Notes under the pieces: model-generated
Databases searched by the model: none
The model's input: only the letters and a program-made list of their open reading frames with translations
Told to the model about the DNA's origin: nothing
From: Eunapius fragilis
Taxonomy: Eukaryota > Porifera > Demospongiae > Spongillida > Spongillidae
Direction: 5' to 3'
DNA length: 64,000 bases
Assembly: GCA_963681505.1 (NCBI GenBank)
Contig: OY811985.1
Span: forward strand, 1,908,713-1,972,712
Shown: piece by piece, positions 13,150 through 21,884 of the stretch
Position numbering within the stretch: position 1 is the stretch's first letter
Layout of the letters: each line of letters opens with the position of its first letter
Translations under genes and position numbers: made by a program

Positions 13150-13378
13150 TCACCATTATGCCAATTCGATCATACTCTACCCCTCTAATTCATGGCAAGA
13201 GGTATGGTATATCAAGTGCATAATGCATGGAGTGTTTTTGTTAGGTTTTAGTATGGTGAGGGTATACCTCGGTGTGAGGTGAACCACTGACCTTGCACTG
13301 TGATTACACCAGTGTAACCACTATGCCAATCTGACCATCCCCTACCCCCTCCAATTTAGGAAAAGAGCCATGCTTTAT
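13150..13378 (-). repeat. tRNA-derived SINE copy
   Basis: On the minus strand the element starts CCCATAAAGCATGGCTCTTT and contains a tRNA-like pol III promoter: GGCATAGTGGTTACAC (A-box-like) and AGTGGTTCACCTCACACC (B-box-like). A second, weaker A-box-like unit (GAATTGGCATAATGGTG) follows further along. A second copy with the same start and promoter lies at 39430-39570. The insertion coincides with the premature end of the transposase reading frame at 13375. Confidence 0.7.
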
Positions 13379-14886
13379 GGGTTAAATCCACATAGGTCAT
13401 ACAAACGATAAAATATACACTCTCCAGTCACACCTGTGTCTTTAGATATAGCTTGCTTATCTGCTTTGGTTGCGGCAGTGTCAACACTAATCCCATATTG
13501 GCGATTTGTATTTGGATCACGATTTTCACAGGGATTTCGATACCGGTATCTGAAATTTCCATAGTAATAATGTTTTTTCTCTGGTACATAGATACCACTT
13601 ACAAAGCACCTTCTACACCCATGGAATCCACCTGCTTTAGTTAAACCAATTTTGCAATGTGCCTTGGAATCTGCTGTAACCAACAATGGCAATATTCTAA
13701 GGTTTGGAAATGTACCTTGCTCAGCATCACCTTCCATACCAGCAAAGTAAACTTCTTCTCCATTTATAAATAATTCTTCTATCTCCTCTATCAGTGGCTG
13801 AAAAAAAGCATCATATTTATGGGGAGTGGATTTTGGCAACATATGTGTGGGTATGAATGAATATACCCTAACATTGGAACCATAGCTACGGTTCAGTTTG
13901 GACATGCATCCATGGGTTATTGTAATGGCAGCTATTGAGTGGGCTGAAGATGTTGAGTGAGGGCTCCACCCATCTTCATGGATTATAACAACTTGATTTC
14001 GTGGGTCTCCATGTACAAACGATTGGAAATATGTAAAGGAACCAGAACACAGTGCATGCATTGGAGATTCGTGTTGCCACCATTTGATTGTAGATACTTG
14101 GTTGGAATTATCTTTAAACATCGAGGGCATTTTTCAGGTAGCAAATACTGCTTGCTAGAATCCCAAAACCATGATAACTCTCTAAATCTTCGCCCATGCC
14201 ACAGTTCCGACTGAGAAGGAGGTTGATAGTCATTTTGACGATTAAACCATTCATCCTTTTGTTCCCAATGTGCCATTAGTTTTTGACACTGATCTCTGGA
14301 GCTAAACCAGTTACAAAAATCCAAACCTAGACAATAGTAATCTAAACAGTCAGACCATGTTTTTCCGCATGCTGGATAGGGTGAATTTTTTTGCTTTTGA
14401 GCAAGAACGAATGTGATGATGAAACGCATACCTTGTAATGTTGTGGCGCTTTGTATCCCGCATTTTCCATTACTTTTAGCACGTCTGTTCATTTGTGGGT
14501 ATTACATCGTCTCCAAGCAGCTGAGCAGCATTTCTTAAGTGTTCTTCAATTTCTTGCACTGAGAGTCCACTTTGCAGTTTTGCCTTGGCTTCTTTCATAA
14601 TAAATGAGGTAACATTCTGTTCAGTTAACTCAAATACAGCGCTAGCATTTAAGCATTTAGCAGCATCTGTAATAATGTCGTCATTGCTGCTCTCGTTGGA
14701 AGTAGCACAATTTTCACATCGAGGATCGGACATACACTTTGGCATCCTGGTAGGTGAAGATGGTTCAGTGATTGTAGTAGTGTAACTGTGCAATGCATGG
14801 CGCTCGACAGTTCGTATGTCTCGTAGCTCATTATTGCATGCTGGACAACAGCACGGTACCAGCTTTCTTCTCTTTGCAGCATACAT
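13375..14886 (-). pseudogene. Transposase_21 (TNP2/EnSpm-CACTA-like) transposase, frameshifted and truncated
   Basis: The product would be a DNA-transposon transposase. Reading from 14886 the parts are: an N-terminal Cys-rich region (CCCPACNNEL, then CMSDPRCENC); KTWSDCLDYYCLGLDF; SELWHGRRFRELSWFWD; CPRC and CMHC zinc-type pairs; FVHGDPRNQVVIIHEDGW; and, near the end, ADSKAHCKIGLTKAGGFHGC and EKKHYYYGNFRYRYRNP. These resemble the Transposase_21 proteins common in sponge genomes, where an HCK/GC..C pattern replaces the plant SPARA/CxxC one. At least three frame changes are needed: near 14485, at an A run near 14400, and near 14040-14130. The frame then stops at 13375 exactly where the SINE lies. 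The start ATG at 14886 faces a divergent gene 75 bases away. I am confident of transposon origin and less so of the family. Confidence 0.6.
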
Positions 14887-14961
14887 ATCATAAACTTAAA
14901 TGCACGTGATCTAAGTGGTTACGCCGTATTATTAATTGCCACGGCGTGTTCAAGCTCGAAA
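14887..14961. promoter_or_regulatory. Putative bidirectional promoter between divergent genes
   Basis: Only 75 bases separate the ATG of the minus-strand transposase from the ATG of the plus-strand gene. The interval contains a CACGTG E-box at 14903-14908. No TATA box is evident. A shared promoter is inferred from geometry alone. Confidence 0.35.
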
Positions 14962-17339
14962 ATGTCCGGCTACATCGTTGTAACTGTTGACGGCAAGGAA
15001 AATCTTGAACTTGAATGCAACACCGCTGGCAAATTTTTGATCTCTGACCTGGAATCGCTAATCGGAATTTCCGCTGTTGGATTAAAGTATGTGTCTGAAA
15101 CATCACGTTATCGAGGTGTCAGAGTAGAGGCCGGAGAGCTAATGAAACCGAATGGTGGTTGGCAGCCGGAAAGCAGAATTTACAGCGTTGTTGCGAAACG
15201 TGAGATAGCCACAGCAGATGTACTCTCGACTGACGCTGCTAGCCACATTGCTCATTCTGATGGTGGCGCCACGACAGTACCTCTAGAACCACATTCAAAA
15301 GGTACCTATTTATATTGTATTGCCATTCACTTTCATGTGCACGGTTTTTTCATCAGCAACTATTTCCTTAACAAAGCGGCAACTTCAAGTATGAGCAAAG
15401 CCAACTAGGCATCATGGGTGCTTTGTGATGTTCGTTACATTTTGTGTATGTTCTATCAATTGGAGGTATACCTGGAACCAGATATTATGATGACTGAGCA
15501 AATTTCTTTTTAAAATTCAGTTTGAAGGTTCTGGAAGCCTCATCAAATGTGATGGAACAACTCAGGCACAGGCGATGGCCAATCAGGCTTTGCGGCAGAA
15601 AATAACTTCAGATTCTGAAGTAACTGCGTTTTACGAGACATTTGTTTTGGAAGACAAATTTTCCTGTTGTACTTGATGATTTGAAGGCCTCTGAACAAGT
15701 TAGAATTGTGCTGAACAACAGGAAGCGCTCCAAACCAGTACTGTTTTGTTCTTTGGTGTATATCTGTTTGCATATCTATCACTTGTGTATCATTGTAAGT
15801 ACATGTTTATCTCTCTACTGATTACTGCAGGTGTTCCCATTTTCATCTCTAACGTCTTCAGCTGCAATTACTGTAAGTGCTATGATTACAATTCCTGCTT
15901 TGAATGCCATTTAATTGTTGGTGTCACATTTTAGTCCTACTTTTGCTGGTGATCAGGTAAATTTCCAGGATGTATATTATCAAAGTGTTCACAGATTTAT
16001 TCCCCCAGTTGGCATCTGATTTCTACAAATCTACAAAGTAGCTAAGTAGTAAATTTTAGTTTACTAACTCCTGTATCCAATATTCTAGAGCTTCTACTCC
16101 AAGCCAACCTGTTACCACGCAAAAAATGACCCCATCACGTCCTCCAATGAAGGTCTCTGCACCAAAAGCATCAACTCTCAACCCGTGCAACAGTCATCAG
16201 AGGTGCAGCATTTTTTCATGCTGTGATGACCTACCTGGAAAACATGTGCAGGGTGATGATCAGCCTGAGAAAGGAGCAGAAATATTTGGGGTGAGTATAA
16301 AGGCATACTACACCTATCTGTCAGTATTATGATGCACACGCAGACATCAAATGCAAAGTGCATATGGCAGGCCTCTTCTTACCTTGTCCTTTTTTTCAAA
16401 GTCAACCTGCAGTGATGACGAATGTGAGAAAACAACTGAGTATGAATTGGCTAGGGCCCAAAAACTTCCAACAGACAAAATGCAAGGTGCATATGGCAGC
16501 TGCATGTATAAATACAGGCTGTATACTGCAAAAACAAAAGTATAAGAATGGGTGACGGTCCCAAAATTTTTTTTTTTGTGTGATATCATATGTGAATTCA
16601 CTCTGCGATTTGGTGTGACCTTCACTCCGTTTTAGTTTCTATTACGAAGTGATGACACTGGGATAAAAGATAACTTCGTTGCTATTTAACTATTGATGTT
16701 ATGGCAGCTTGTAGAGTTAGGTACAGGGCTGTAGTACAGGTGATCACGGGTTTGAATCCTGACCAATGCATAGTTTTTTTCCCTCCTTTTTGCTTTTGGG
16801 TGAAATCTCTAGCACTTGATATGAAGGTCACACCTCATTTGGTGTGTGCTACCTTCACACCAAATAATTGGGGACCTTTACACTTTTGATTTTGCTGCTA
16901 GACCACTTACCTTGTCCTTGTTTTCAAAGTCAACCAGTGATGACGAATGTGAAAACAGAACGAAATATGAATTGGCTAGGGCCCAAAAAATTCAACAGAA
17001 CAGGGAGTTTCTTATTCAGCAAGAAATCGTATGTTACTGTTCAAATTAACACATTCCAATAACATGACTTTCTTGTAGCTTACTACCAGAAACACCATGA
17101 ATGATGACGATTCTGTACTTGTTGCATCGCAGTGGTGGCATTCGCAAAACAGTGCCCGTGTCTGCATTACAGGGATCGTTGCTCAAATTGACAGTCTTGG
17201 AATTCCCAGCCCAAAAAAGAACTGCACACTTCGGGAACTTCTAATCCATTTTGGAAATAGACTAGTAGAAGAGAAATTAGTACAATTAAAAAAACCAGCT
17301 GGATTATGTAAAGACGATGTAATTGTGTTGAACATGTAA
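14962..17339 (+). CDS. Unrecognised multi-exon gene with possible ubiquitin-like header domain
   Basis: The first exon (14962-15301) starts SGYIVVTVDGKENLELECN, then SDLESLIGIS, then GLKYVSETSRYRGVRVEAGE. This strand-strand-helix-strand order and length would suit a ubiquitin-like fold such as Crinkler header domains; that is inference from pattern. A 32-base second exon (15357-15388) splices in phase. A third block starts at 15521 and carries a frame change near 15640. Later pieces are 15831-15872, about 16089-16290 (Pro/Ser-rich linker), 16930-17028 and 17079-17339; the last three join in frame and end CKDDVIVLNM. A near copy of exon 16930-17028 lies at 16402-16486, and its inclusion would shift the frame. 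The gene diverges from the transposase and converges on the Crinkler/RHS-like gene. No database family is recognised. Confidence 0.45.
16402..16486 (+). repeat. Duplicate of exon 16930-17028, out of phase
   Basis: Both segments follow ACCTTGTCCT and a TTTCAAAG acceptor and encode DDECE, then YELARAQK. This first copy is 85 bases to its GT donor, the second is 99, so only the second keeps the frame with its neighbours. Confidence 0.65.
16713..16775 (+). repeat. tRNA-like (SINE-type) fragment
   Basis: GGGCTGTAGTACAGGTG followed by CACGGGTTTGAATCCTG resembles a pol III A box and B box (GGTTCRAATCC consensus). No full cloverleaf can be drawn, so a SINE head or decayed tRNA is more likely than a working tRNA gene. 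It sits in an intron of the plus-strand gene. Confidence 0.35.
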
Positions 17340-18019
17340 TTCATAAAGTTCATTCCTTTATAAAGTTTAGTCCTAGTTAATGTTAATTAATGGCTGCACA
17401 TTCTCGTTCCTAGACTTATGAGGAATTACCACAGTGCTATACAATGTAAAGTCGGGGCACTAGTAACGACATTTGTGGTATTTTCAAACACATGCATTGC
17501 TCCTCTGAGTCAGTAAAAGTATTGCAATACAGAATTGCTACTGTAGCAAAGTATGCAAATGTAGAGCAAATTTTACTACCAAAGTAAAAAATACATGCCA
17601 TGTAAAACACCATTTTTAAAGCATTAGCAAATCACAGTTTACATCGGTTTACAACATTTACATCAGATCATATGGAACTACTCTAGATCTTCAGGGTAGC
17701 AAAACAATAAATTTTCCCTGTGAAAGTAAAACGGCCGACAAATTTAAAATAAAAATTGGTAAAAACGCTATGGAGCATGTGACCGAAAGAATTACAATCC
17801 ACGACTTTTGTGACCGTTCATTTCTCCATGTTTAAAATCATTTCCCTCTGCTGTACATCCATGCAACAGAATGTTTAAAACATGCATGTGTGCAACACTG
17901 TGCAACCGATCATATATATCTTGCCACGTAATCTTCATTTTACACAACTAACAAACAATACAAAAGAAACAATCATCCTGAGATGATGGTTCAGCCACAC
18001 AAAACAAATCTTTGTACAC
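17340..18019. other. Convergent 3' region, no gene seen
   Basis: AT-rich sequence lies between the stop of the plus-strand gene at 17339 and the stop of the minus-strand NTPase-nuclease at 18020. I see no additional coding signal or repeat. Confidence 0.5.
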
Positions 18020-19567
18020 CTAACAAAAGGATCTGAAGTCTTGAGCACCCAGTATCCTAGCAGACTGTGTTTCTTTCCCCTTTTCCCAATCATGAAATGC
18101 ATGTAGTAATCCTTCTCCTTCTACAGGCGTAATCTTAAATGTATTCATTATGTCCATCGGAGTAAGAAAGCATATATCCAATATCGTTGTCTCAAAATGA
18201 TTTCTAAACTGGTCCATTAAATCACGGAAATATCTAATCTTAAATGAATGTTTAGATGCCTTAGTTACTTGAACAAATCGAGTAAGTTTGTTTTTTTTAT
18301 CAACATAGACAGCATCATATCCCCCTTGATCATGTTTAATTGGTCTGTACCAAACAGGATCAGAAGATAAAGCAATGATATGATTAGGATCCAAATCATA
18401 AACATTGCACTTATTCCAATGCTCGAGTTGAGAATTGTTTCTATCAATCACATCAATACCATTATGTTGGATTGATAGAAAGAACCAACATTCTAGCAAC
18501 TCACCATGCATGGCGGGATTGTCTCTTGCTTTTGTGATTTCAATTATTTGATTTATTAACTGTGGACCACGTTTTATAGCAATTGATGTAAGTGCAAATG
18601 CACTAATAATAGAACTGCCATGTCCTTCATAACATCCATACAAACTATTAACTACTCCAACTGAACGGTCACCAATGTTTTTTTCAGCATAAGATTGAAA
18701 ATCTGTTACTCGATCAATAGCACTATATATACATGAAATAACCTGTTTAGTGGATTTCTGAAACATGAATCTGCAAGAACCACCAGCAAAATGATGCTTT
18801 GATGCAAGCAAATCATATCTGGTGGGTGCTTCTTGATCAGTAGTCCCAGTACTAGCTAAATGACAGTCTTCCATGGCATCCTTGATATTGATCCATACTT
18901 CATCCACAGCAATAGCTGATTTGTATTCATCAAGAGTCCAAGAATAAAGAGTGAATGGCTCTATCGTAACCTCATCAATATTAGTTGGAAGATTGGAACG
19001 ACCAGCCATTGAGGAGATAAAAACTAATCGACGGTAATCTGTGTCATCTTGATACCAGGTAGTACAAACACTTAGCAGTACTGTAACTGCTTGAGAGGTT
19101 TTACTAATAAAAACACCATCAACAAATAGTATGTGCTTTCTCTTACAATCTTTATTTTTTGATAAGCTCATCAGCAAATCAGATAGGCCATCATCATCAG
19201 TGAATGATGATTGTGATTTCTTATTCTCTTCAAAGTGCACAAAATAACAATAACCTAATGCAGCACAGCATATAAATGAAACTTCCCAAACTCTGCGATC
19301 TATTCCCATAGAAAAAGCAAAAGATGACACTGATTTGCCACAACCTGGAGGCCCTGAAATCCAGCCTACTTCATTTTGTGCAATAACACTGGTCTCTAAA
19401 AAGGAAAATAGATCTACTACTCCTTGTCGACGATACAAAGGGCCTTTGATTTTCAGGTAAGTACCAACAGTATAAGAAGATGGAATAGTGCACAAGTTGC
19501 CATCATAATTCAATGCAGGAAAGCTTCCTTCACATTCTACCAAGGCTATGGAATAAGAACAAAACAC
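18020..19567 (-). CDS. Crinkler/RHS-type P-loop NTPase fused to REase-like nuclease
   Basis: This intact 515-codon frame has a Walker A motif GPPGCGKS (residues 72-79), a Walker B HILFVDGV (145-152), and an RLVFISSMAGR sensor-like strand. These are followed by EPFTLYSWTLDEYKSAI (about 203-219), the F-x-W-(T/S)LDEY signature I know from Crinkler and RHS proteins. AGGSCRFMF follows near 261. The C-terminal third has E at 356/359 (GELLECWFF), GGYDAV (D418) and FVQVTKAS (Q433, K436), fitting the PD-(D/E)XK-like nuclease of that class. In oomycetes, fungi and trypanosomes such proteins are nuclear effectors or selfish-element nucleases. The minus-strand sequence TTCCATAG before GCCTTGG suggests a splice acceptor at 19546-19547, so the true protein probably starts in an upstream exon and the first seven codons are intronic. 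No header domain is fused here; a possible one is encoded by the convergent neighbour. Confidence 0.7.
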   Translation of the reverse strand: MFCSYSIALVECEGSFPALNYDGNLCTIPSSYTVGTYLKIKGPLYRRQGVVDLFSFLETSVIAQNEVGWISGPPGCGKSVSSFAFSMGIDRRVWEVSFICCAALGYCYFVHFEENKKSQSSFTDDDGLSDLLMSLSKNKDCKRKHILFVDGVFISKTSQAVTVLLSVCTTWYQDDTDYRRLVFISSMAGRSNLPTNIDEVTIEPFTLYSWTLDEYKSAIAVDEVWINIKDAMEDCHLASTGTTDQEAPTRYDLLASKHHFAGGSCRFMFQKSTKQVISCIYSAIDRVTDFQSYAEKNIGDRSVGVVNSLYGCYEGHGSSIISAFALTSIAIKRGPQLINQIIEITKARDNPAMHGELLECWFFLSIQHNGIDVIDRNNSQLEHWNKCNVYDLDPNHIIALSSDPVWYRPIKHDQGGYDAVYVDKKNKLTRFVQVTKASKHSFKIRYFRDLMDQFRNHFETTILDICFLTPMDIMNTFKITPVEGEGLLHAFHDWEKGKETQSARILGAQDFRSFC

Positions 19568-20098
19568 AAGTTATGACCATACCAATACACTATACCAAAC
19601 TACAAATTATATTAGTTTTATTAATAACTCAATTTTTTGTGGGCAGTGTCAGACTTCAATTTAATGTCTGGGTACATGGTTTTAAACTGTTGTTAGCCTT
19701 TTAAATTGCACAGCAGTAGCCTCAGGGCAATAAAGGCGTGGGCTTTTCTTTGTTTTTTTTTTTGAGTTAGTGAGATTCATTGCTACTTAAGTGCAAACGT
19801 ATGGCTTTTAGTGGAGTAACTTATAAGTAAAACGAGAAAACACGTCTTACCTTTTCAATTCATGATACCTGTTATCATCTAGCAGCCAAAAGAGCAACAG
19901 GTTATCCTACTATAGCGGGCATGCGTGGGTATCATAATGGAGGAACCACTTTATGAAGGCAAAAGATATGGAGATGATGCCATGTGTTTATCTTCTTATT
20001 ACATCAACCCTATTACTTTAAATTTGTTGTACTTGTTACATTCCAGTAAGACCAGACCATGATTTGCTTCGTTGCAACTTATTACAACTATTCATTGA
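19568..20098. other. Upstream of the NTPase-nuclease gene, no gene identified
   Basis: A 5' exon and promoter of the minus-strand gene are expected in or beyond this stretch. I could not define either. Confidence 0.35.
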
Positions 20099-20713
20099 TT
20101 AAATTGACTTAATTGCCCAAGATCCAGCAACTAAAAGAGGTTTGCCACCACTGCTTTTGGCAGTGAGGTGCAACTTCTCACAGTATTGGCTAGAAGCTGG
20201 TCCTTGCAAAAGATAGGAAGGGACTAATGACATGGCAAGGCAAGCCAAACAACGTTTTGCTGGAAATGGAGTTCTTTCCATTCCAAATCCTACAACGGGG
20301 CATCCACTTTCCAAAGACACAGTTGAAAAGGTAGAGTGTTTCTATTGCAGTGGAGTGGCCAAATGCCTGGAAAGAAAGTCTTTGCATCCGTGACTTCAGC
20401 CCTTGGGGTGAGAGAGCATCTACAGAGGTGATTCATCTTCATTTCTTGATGGACTGGTATCTCAGACATCCTGCTGCTGTTTGTATGACCTGCTTCTGCT
20501 CCATCAAAACAGCTATCTGCAGGAGGTTGAGCTCAGTTTGGTCTCATTATAAAGCTTGCATAAATTTTTAGCTGCACTAATCTTATAGCCAGGATGCAGT
20601 AGAAGGGATGGGTGTTTAGCAACTATTTCATTGGATATGATTTGCAAACCACAGCAGTAGTTGAGCTTCTTGTGACGCTCCATTGAATCACAACAGTATT
20701 TCTTAGCTGACAC
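20099..20713 (-). pseudogene. Unrecognised broken coding-like region
   Basis: Two minus-strand frames, 20713-20513 and 20320-20099, look coding-like: one contains KKYCCDSMERHKKLNYCCGL, the other SLESGCPVVGFGMERTPFP. They are separated by stops and are not in the same frame. They could be remnants of a transposon gene or an upstream part of the neighbouring gene. I do not recognise them. Confidence 0.3.
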
Positions 20714-20770
20714 CTGAAGCGCTATTTACTGACATAAGGACACACTGTAGCTCAACAGATCAAAATTGAC

Positions 20771-21200
20771 ACAAGCTGGTATTTATATGTTTATTGCCCT
20801 TACATCATTATCGACTATGTGCATATGAATGCTTCGGTAAACGAACAAAGAGTGATTGAAAGAAAAAGAAAGAATAGGACTTCTGTTCATTCATTCTAAA
20901 GATGTTTACACAATAGTGAAACCAAAATGGATTGATTTGCATTGTGGTGAATGAATTAAATCAGACTGATTCAATCCACTCACCACGATGCGGATCAATC
21001 TGTTTTGGTTTTTCGGTCCCATTCAATTCATTCACCACAATGCAGATCAATCTGTTTTGGTTTGATTTTACGTAGACACCTTTAGAAAGAACAAATGACC
21101 TATTCTTTCTTTCAATCACTCTTTGTTTGTTTATCAAAGCATCCATATGTGCATAGTCTATTATGATGTAAGGGCTATAAGGATACAAATACCAGCTTGT
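20771..21200. mobile_element. Inverted-repeat element, about 430 bp
   Basis: ACAAGCTGGTATTTATATG at 20771 on and its inverted counterpart ending ACCAGCTTGT at 21200 begin arms of about 100 bp with moderate divergence. The arms continue inward through GAACAAAGAGTGATTGAAAG and CATTGTGGTGAATGAATT. The centre carries an extra direct copy of GATCAATCTGTTTTGGTTT. Weak complementarity extends outward to about 20745 and 21235. No target duplication could be fixed, and there is no coding potential. Confidence 0.7.
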
Positions 21201-21884
21201 TTCAGTTCTCATCTGTATACAATGTGTGTTGGCAGGAGTGTATGGCACACACTCTTATCTGCATGACTCACCAAAATGTGAAGCAACCTTACATCACTGG
21301 GGTGTTTGTCAGTCATGTTGGAGTCAGTTCATATTAACTTTTACCCCCCACCATAAAATTTCATACTCTTATTTTAAATTTAAGCCACCCTCCATAAACA
21401 TCTCTCGCATTAGTGGCAAAAATACTATACATTTGTATACCCTACAGTGCCCTGTTTGCCCAATACCACACCATGAGTAATTGATCATTTGGATGACTCT
21501 TTGCTCTGTGAGGGATGTGCCCTTGGTGTATAGAAGTCATATGATGGTGTCTTTTGAGTGCACCAATAAAAGATTCCTGAATTATTAGAGATTAGTGTTT
21601 GACGAATAAATAATGAATTTTAGTGCAGCATTCTTTTTTCCTTGGGTGGCTCTTACAACACCTAAGATTAAGGTAAATATATGTGGACCAAATAACATGA
21701 CGTCACTTAAACCCACTAAAGACCGAATTGTCTTTATGCAATAACTTCAATATTGGCTGTTGCTAACGTAGATATTATTGTCTCAAAGAAAGCCTATTCC
21801 AGCTGCTGCGAATTCGCAGGAACTGTCCTTAAACCGGTAATTAATTTCAGCAGCAAATTTGTGGCTACGGTCCCGAATCGAACT
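21201..21884. other. No identified gene
   Basis: This stretch is unique-looking AT-rich sequence. A minus-strand AAGTTCGATTCGGGACC near 21869-21885 resembles a pol III B box, but no A box is found. Confidence 0.4.

Follow-up and report, generated by a model that had tools for sequence, protein, structure and literature searches.

A probable decayed two-gene CACTA/EnSpm-type transposon with a TDP-43 N-terminal domain gene, and a probably independent NTPase-nuclease-like neighbour, in the sponge Eunapius fragilis

Three genes fall within 6.2 kb on one contig of the sponge Eunapius fragilis (a Transposase_21-like gene on the minus strand, a divergent multi-exon gene on the plus strand, and a convergent 515-codon frame, again on the minus strand, with NTPase and nuclease motifs), and the question raised by this locus is whether they belong to one mobile element. 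The stretch of DNA that was analysed, hereafter the window, is 64,000 nucleotides long (C15:1908713-1972712; contig OY811985.1 of assembly GCA_963681505.1), and it was compared with the genome, 219 Mb in 24 contigs. The initial annotation, made from the letters of the window, had recognised all three genes, each of which we found to be present, and had read them, tentatively, as a composite transposon, or the relic of one, in which a possible header and an NTPase-nuclease are split into separate genes. Our analysis leads to a different answer: with high probability, bases 13374-17722 are what is left of a CACTA/EnSpm-type transposon that had two genes, and the NTPase-nuclease gene is an independent neighbour (Table 1).

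The genome was searched with the transposase fragment of the window, and eight places were found with 98-99% identity over residues 27-251. In all eight copies the transposase and the TDP-43 N-terminal (TDP_N) domain of the divergent gene keep the order and spacing of the window, head-to-head, and both ends of the element could be mapped beside every one of them (8/8), with sizes of 17.7-21.1 kb as computed from coordinates (six interiors were not read through). The transposase frame is open for 1046 codons in six of the eight copies and for 928 and 863 codons in the other two. Two copies, one on C6 (18295 bp) and one on C9 (17737 bp), were read base by base. Both begin with CACAGGAAAA and finish with TTTTCCCTGTG, that is, with CACAG inverted termini (2/2 copies read); the terminal inverted repeats are CACAGGAAAA on the left and CACAGGGAAA on the right, and 3-bp target duplications (TAA/TAA and GTC/GTC) flank both copies. 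Target duplications of 3 bp are produced by CACTA/EnSpm elements, according to the available part of the text of PMC4158355. The termini and the target duplications have the anatomy of a CACTA/EnSpm element.

The window holds a relic of this element. Its alignment with the C6 copy, interrupted by a single gap, has 98.3% identity over 13374-15403 and 96.6% over 15390-17726; for the left portion of the C6 element there was no long match in the window. In the searches with the two ends, 40 of 76 and 40 of 73 first-look candidates were scored; of the 40 scored right-end matches, one of them the window itself, 24 break off precisely at the base of 17722 and 36 fall short of the query's end at 17726. 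The placing of the right end at 17722 is based in addition on longer alignments of full copies (the C6-C9 alignment and that of one full copy against the whole window), both of which end at 17722-17726, and on the lack of a long second copy of 17727-21200 (besides itself, no match in the DNA search covers more than 446 of its 3474 bases). For the transposase, the piece at 13375-14130 (minus strand) matched PF02992 with E 3.3e-6 and 26.9 bits (Pfam cut-off 28.6), and its open frames continue over 13983-14492 and 14476-14886. When the C6 copy's open frame of 1046 aa (Transposase_21, E 7.7e-5, 22.4 bits, same cut-off) was compared with the window by tblastn, residues 1-507 were recovered in four pieces lying in three frames, and residues 508-1046 were absent.

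Table 1. Coordinates of the features in the window (position 1 is the first base of the window).
Feature	Position	Strand	Remarks
CACTA/EnSpm-type transposon relic (very probable)	13374..17722		right end kept; without its left end and the 3' portion of the transposase
Right terminus	17707..17722		ends ...TTTTCCCTGTG; other strand CACAGGGAAAA
Transposase remnant (Transposase_21-like)	13375..14886	-	several frames, C-terminal half missing; PF02992 profile; tblastn with the C6 frame of 1046 aa
Second gene, exon 1, TDP-43 N-terminal domain (PF18694)	14962..15301	+	profile match; C6 exon model
Second gene, exon 2, truncated	15360..15403	+	deletion of ~1.0 kb relative to other copies starts here
Second gene, exon 3, frameshifted in the window	15521..15737	+	comparison with the C6 copy and L062
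Second gene, exons 4-7	16089-16202, 16252-16290, 16930-17028, 17079-17339 (about)	+	C6 model transferred by eye; exons 4-6 uncertain
NTPase-nuclease-like frame, 515 codons	18020..19567	-	outside the transposon; coding from ~19545 downwards

The second gene of the element starts with an ATG at 14962, 75 bp from the ATG of the transposase at 14886. Its TDP_N domain was matched above the cut-off of the PF18694 profile (27.1 bits) both in the window (E 9.3e-11, 41.9 bits) and in the C6 copy (38.4 bits). A seven-exon model with a conserved last exon was built on the C6 copy; exons 1, 2, 3 and 7 are backed by tblastx against a diverged copy (L062, C10:4.34 Mb), and exons 4-6, drawn by eye from two copies, are uncertain, as are the joins. 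The C6 protein had no Pfam match besides TDP_N, and none to RRM. In the window copy most of exon 2 was removed by a deletion of ~1.0 kb. An insertion of ~1 kb in the other copies was considered instead and rejected: the diverged copy has the same exon there, so the stretch was lost from the window. Genome-wide, the TDP_N profile search returned 17 places, comprising the eight copies, the window, C10:4347844, a host gene at C9:788646, and six weak partial matches. The weak matches (L038-L043; C2:1478407, 1495094, 1479355 and 1496042, C9:4764965 and 8738058; E 1e-4 to 4e-4) consist of two short pieces that are repeated within the locus, and possibly represent a second, unlinked TDP_N-like family.

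The diverged copy, with 68.8% DNA identity over the best stretch and a right end that reads ...TTTTTTCCCTGTG, keeps the transposase and the second gene in order and retains exons 1, 2, 3 and 7 of the latter. Between the window family and this copy, pS was 0.785 and pN 0.277 over 226 codons of the second gene (exons 1, 3 and 7), and for the transposase pS was 0.798 and pN 0.185 over 284 codons (three of the four pieces tried; to be used, a piece had to exceed 25 codons and 45% identity). No pN/pS ratio is given because synonymous sites are saturated. As judged from these comparisons, the pairing of the two genes is old and selected, since the diverged copy keeps the pair, synonymous sites are saturated, and protein changes are restrained in both genes. 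The transposase of the diverged copy contains stop codons, so that this copy is now decaying. A TDP-43-like gene of the host itself (L063, the match at C9:788646) has its domain interrupted by an intron and followed by RRM-like exons (recognised by eye). The domain of the element is intronless where that of the host is split, and the two share 48-56% over 18-21 aligned residues. Because of the differences in intron and RRM content, the element does not seem to have taken its TDP_N domain recently from the host gene of today (no tree was computed).

The third gene carries the motifs that had been claimed for it, namely Walker A and B, SWTLDEY and a nuclease-like D/Q-x-T-K core (GPPGCGKS, HILFVDG and SWTLDEY, followed by LLE...GGYDAVY...VQVTK). 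Its length and its identity of 30-47% to three genomic relatives mean that the frame is not a chance one. A splice-acceptor-like sequence was seen by eye within its first codons, so the GTG is probably not the true start and the frame is probably one exon of a longer host gene. In a genome search with the protein, 18 matches were found at 14 places including the window, mostly on C9; the best other full-length relative has 35% identity, and one partial relative has 47%. Residues E359, D418, Q433 and T435 are invariant in all four aligned family members (window included), a pattern which we take to be that of restriction-type nucleases. Walker A and B are present, by motif, in the three members that the alignment spans cleanly (window, L010, L013), and SW[ST]xxEY is common to the members where the aligned parts span it cleanly; this last motif presumably links the family to Crinklers. 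In profile searches, Crinkler or RHSP families were not among the Pfam matches of the window protein at E 1, nor among those of four relatives (L010, L013, L014, L022) at E 10; NCBIfam and PADLOC gave nothing for the window frame and only E 0.014-0.22 for two relatives; and of 35 pattern matches in viral contigs, none was confirmed as a relative. On the resemblance of its motifs, the gene is likely a Crinkler-RHS (CR)-like host gene. A header exon upstream of it was sought and not found, the matches in the window being simple-repeat-like and no conserved upstream exon appearing among the four loci compared, two of which were covered in part; one pair of other NTPase loci shares a short upstream coding stretch that is not tied to the NTPase.

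NTPase genes of this family occur in pairs of almost identical copies, whose members are separated by 0.1 to 1.0 Mb on C9 or lie on different contigs (C9 7286890/7384954, 6265000/7308142 and 7955413/8256933; C9 3593059 with C19:2820310; L010-L019); recent duplication has multiplied them, for the most part on C9. Fragments of retroelement pol, recognised by eye, lie beside several of the pairs. Upstream of the NTPase gene of the window there is an imperfect fold-back repeat (~76%, window 20755-21216), a similar copy of which lies at C9:3839813-3840134.

Could the three genes move, or once have moved, as a single element after all? Several observations weigh against the reading of a two-gene transposon beside an independent gene, and the first of them is proximity. 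The three genes lie side by side in the window, and at two of the 13 NTPase places elsewhere there is also some other Transposase_21 match no more than ~10 kb away (NTPase C1:5995722 by C1:5985307, and NTPase C9:7384954 by C9:7394074), as against ~0.4 such proximities expected (a hand estimate from 305 Transposase_21 candidates in 219 Mb). The eight two-ended copies tell against a composite element: they have the transposase and the TDP_N gene together in every case, whereas the 18 NTPase matches are all located elsewhere, the nearest to any copy being 142 kb away. In the window the element stops before the NTPase gene, which starts 297 bases past the right end. A long second copy of the NTPase DNA was not found in the genome search either (its coding part gave short pieces and, with two relatives, matches of 287 bases at 68%); the absence of such a DNA match for 17727-21200 does not prove rarity, but the protein search is in line with that absence. 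The composite of three genes was therefore rejected for this family of elements, and we give it hardly any probability; further copies in which the three genes do not occur together are what the initial annotation had itself named as refuting its proposal. What survives of that proposal is the relic of a metazoan-type transposon to which the divergent gene also belongs; the NTPase gene falls outside. The suggestion of a ubiquitin-like header fared similarly, in that the first domain of the divergent gene (TDP-43_N) is of a kind described as ubiquitin-like and the Crinkler header role did not hold: no evidence of a split header/toxin arrangement was found, and the TDP_N gene is not a header of the NTPase. 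Further points against the two-gene reading concern the element itself. Target duplications were read in only two of the eight copies; the right-end query ran just 4 bases past the terminus, and that search alone shows no stop; and Transposase_21 lies below the Pfam cut-off in both the window piece and the C6 frame. No subterminal repeats were detected in the outer 450 bp at both ends of one copy, where exact words of 8-12 bases were not above shuffles, in a crude test restricted to exact words. TDP_N resembles the TDP-43 domains of solved structure only weakly in sequence (best E 0.0082), and single-sequence AlphaFold prediction of TDP_N exon 1 gave a pLDDT of 38, with no fold obtained.

Two further alternatives concern the identity of single genes. 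The TDP_N gene might be a passenger, that is, a captured fragment of a host gene without a role in transposition; CACTA elements often capture sequences (PMC8195511, in the part of the text available), and this host has a TDP-43-like gene from which to take one. A passenger would hardly be expected to keep the same place in the diverged copy, where synonymous sites are saturated and pN is 0.28, or to have several exons, the last of them conserved, and no other Pfam match, and the intron that splits the host domain, together with the 48-56% over the short alignment given above, also speaks against it; we consider this unlikely. The NTPase frame, in turn, might be an ordinary STAND/NLR-type NTPase without a nuclease fold. 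The weak P-loop profiles point in this direction (NPHP3_N E 3.9e-4 and nSTAND3 E 0.14 for the window frame; nSTAND and AAA families for the relatives L010, L013, L014 and L022; all below their cut-offs), and structural comparison does not contradict it: there was no sequence match in the PDB at E 1, four profile matches at E 0.77-0.99 (the best only E 0.77) were taken as chance, and AlphaFold without an alignment gave the frame a pLDDT of 33 and no fold, which also counts against our own assignment. An ordinary STAND/NLR protein agrees less well with the C-terminal part, which is conserved better than the whole (mean column identity 54% vs. 47%) and contains the invariant E, D and Q-x-T, or with the Pfam list of the window frame, in which no sensor-repeat family appears at E 1. 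This alternative, too, seems improbable.

The preferred reading, a two-gene CACTA/EnSpm-type relic next to an NTPase-nuclease-like host gene, can be compared with known systems. With CACTA/EnSpm elements (En/Spm of plants with TNPD and TNPA; SmTRC1 of Schistosoma) the element shares a transposase of Transposase_21 type (by matches below the Pfam cut-off), 3-bp duplications, short inverted ends beginning with CAC, a gene for a second protein, and many shorter relatives with the same ends. It differs from them in its CACAG ends, the divergent orientation of the second gene, large tandem arrays in the left half, a second protein that begins with TDP-43_N and has no other Pfam match, and the lack of subterminal repeats by the crude test. 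With TDP-43 (TARDBP), the second protein has in common a PF18694 domain of ~70 residues at the protein start with an RGVR...G.L..P..GW core, whereas it lacks an RRM match, has a different remainder, and has no intron in the domain. The NTPase frame resembles Crinkler-RHS proteins in a P-loop NTPase followed by a restriction-type nuclease motif, the layout described for that group (PMC5289972, available part), and is unlike them in matching no Crinkler/RHSP family in Pfam and in that no header exon was found in the comparison of four loci. KolobokP composite-like transposons (PMC9587614, available part) are likewise animal DNA transposons with an extra gene beside the transposase, but belong to another superfamily, and their extra gene is a homing endonuclease.

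Around the full-length copies, many further end matches of ~90% form pairs spaced by a few kb, which appear to be short derivatives (from coordinates only). Two-ended relatives of ~3.7 kb (e.g., C1:720741-724395, C6:596842-600497 and C3:1942997-1946650) hold pieces of exon 3 twice in opposite orientation as well as the last exons, and appear to be non-autonomous derivatives that were amplified. In its left half, the C6 element contains two large tandem arrays (C6:3491241-3493516 and 3495531-3497486; L058, L054), with 164-bp units and with short units of ~17 bp or multiples thereof; a third long non-repetitive frame was not seen in this half. Large polyprotein frames like those of retroelements, in which reverse transcriptase and integrase were recognised by eye, adjoin the C6 copy at C6:3505469-3509939 (L056:1470-5940).

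Intact copies thus consist of a transposase on the minus strand and a multi-exon accessory gene on the plus strand, with starts 75 bp apart, in an element of 17.7-21 kb. By analogy with the family, the 75-bp gap would be a shared promoter and the element would move by cut-and-paste chemistry. In plant Spm, TNPA binds DNA (the subterminal repeats) and TNPD interacts with TNPA, both being needed for transposition (PMC1636069 and PMC8195511, available parts of the texts). The second protein of the animal element SmTRC1 is described, in the available part of PMC1636069, as resembling neither TNPA nor sequences of other animal or fungal elements to a detectable degree; its role in DNA binding is left there as a hypothesis. 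The head-to-tail chains made by the TDP-43 N-terminal domain (PMC5830921, available part) suggest how such a protein could work. We propose that the second protein of the sponge element may be the animal counterpart of plant TNPA and would do its job: units of the protein would be joined head to tail through the TDP_N domain, in the manner of TDP-43, another part of the protein would bind element DNA, and the chains would bring the ends together for the transposase or control the promoter. An animal CACTA lineage whose TNPA is a TDP_N protein that polymerises on the DNA of the element, pairs the ends and gates the transposase is a tentative idea, which we rate at somewhat under even chances. 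The neighbouring NTPase-nuclease, from its motifs, would be an NTP-driven switch that gates a restriction-type nuclease of the Crinkler-RHS kind.

A literature search, which left most subscription papers and Repbase outside, found, among the papers listed, no work linking the TDP-43 N-terminal domain to a transposon, and PF18694 in none of the full texts covered, which does not prove novelty. TDP-43 is the protein of amyotrophic lateral sclerosis (ALS). If the proposal is true, a selfish element and a core RNA-binding protein would have the TDP_N domain in common, with descent in either direction. The TNPA-like second protein would here have a domain of known structure and polymerisation chemistry, which would make the mechanics of TNPA-like proteins directly testable, and the TDP-43 N-terminal domain would gain a possible life outside RNA-binding proteins.

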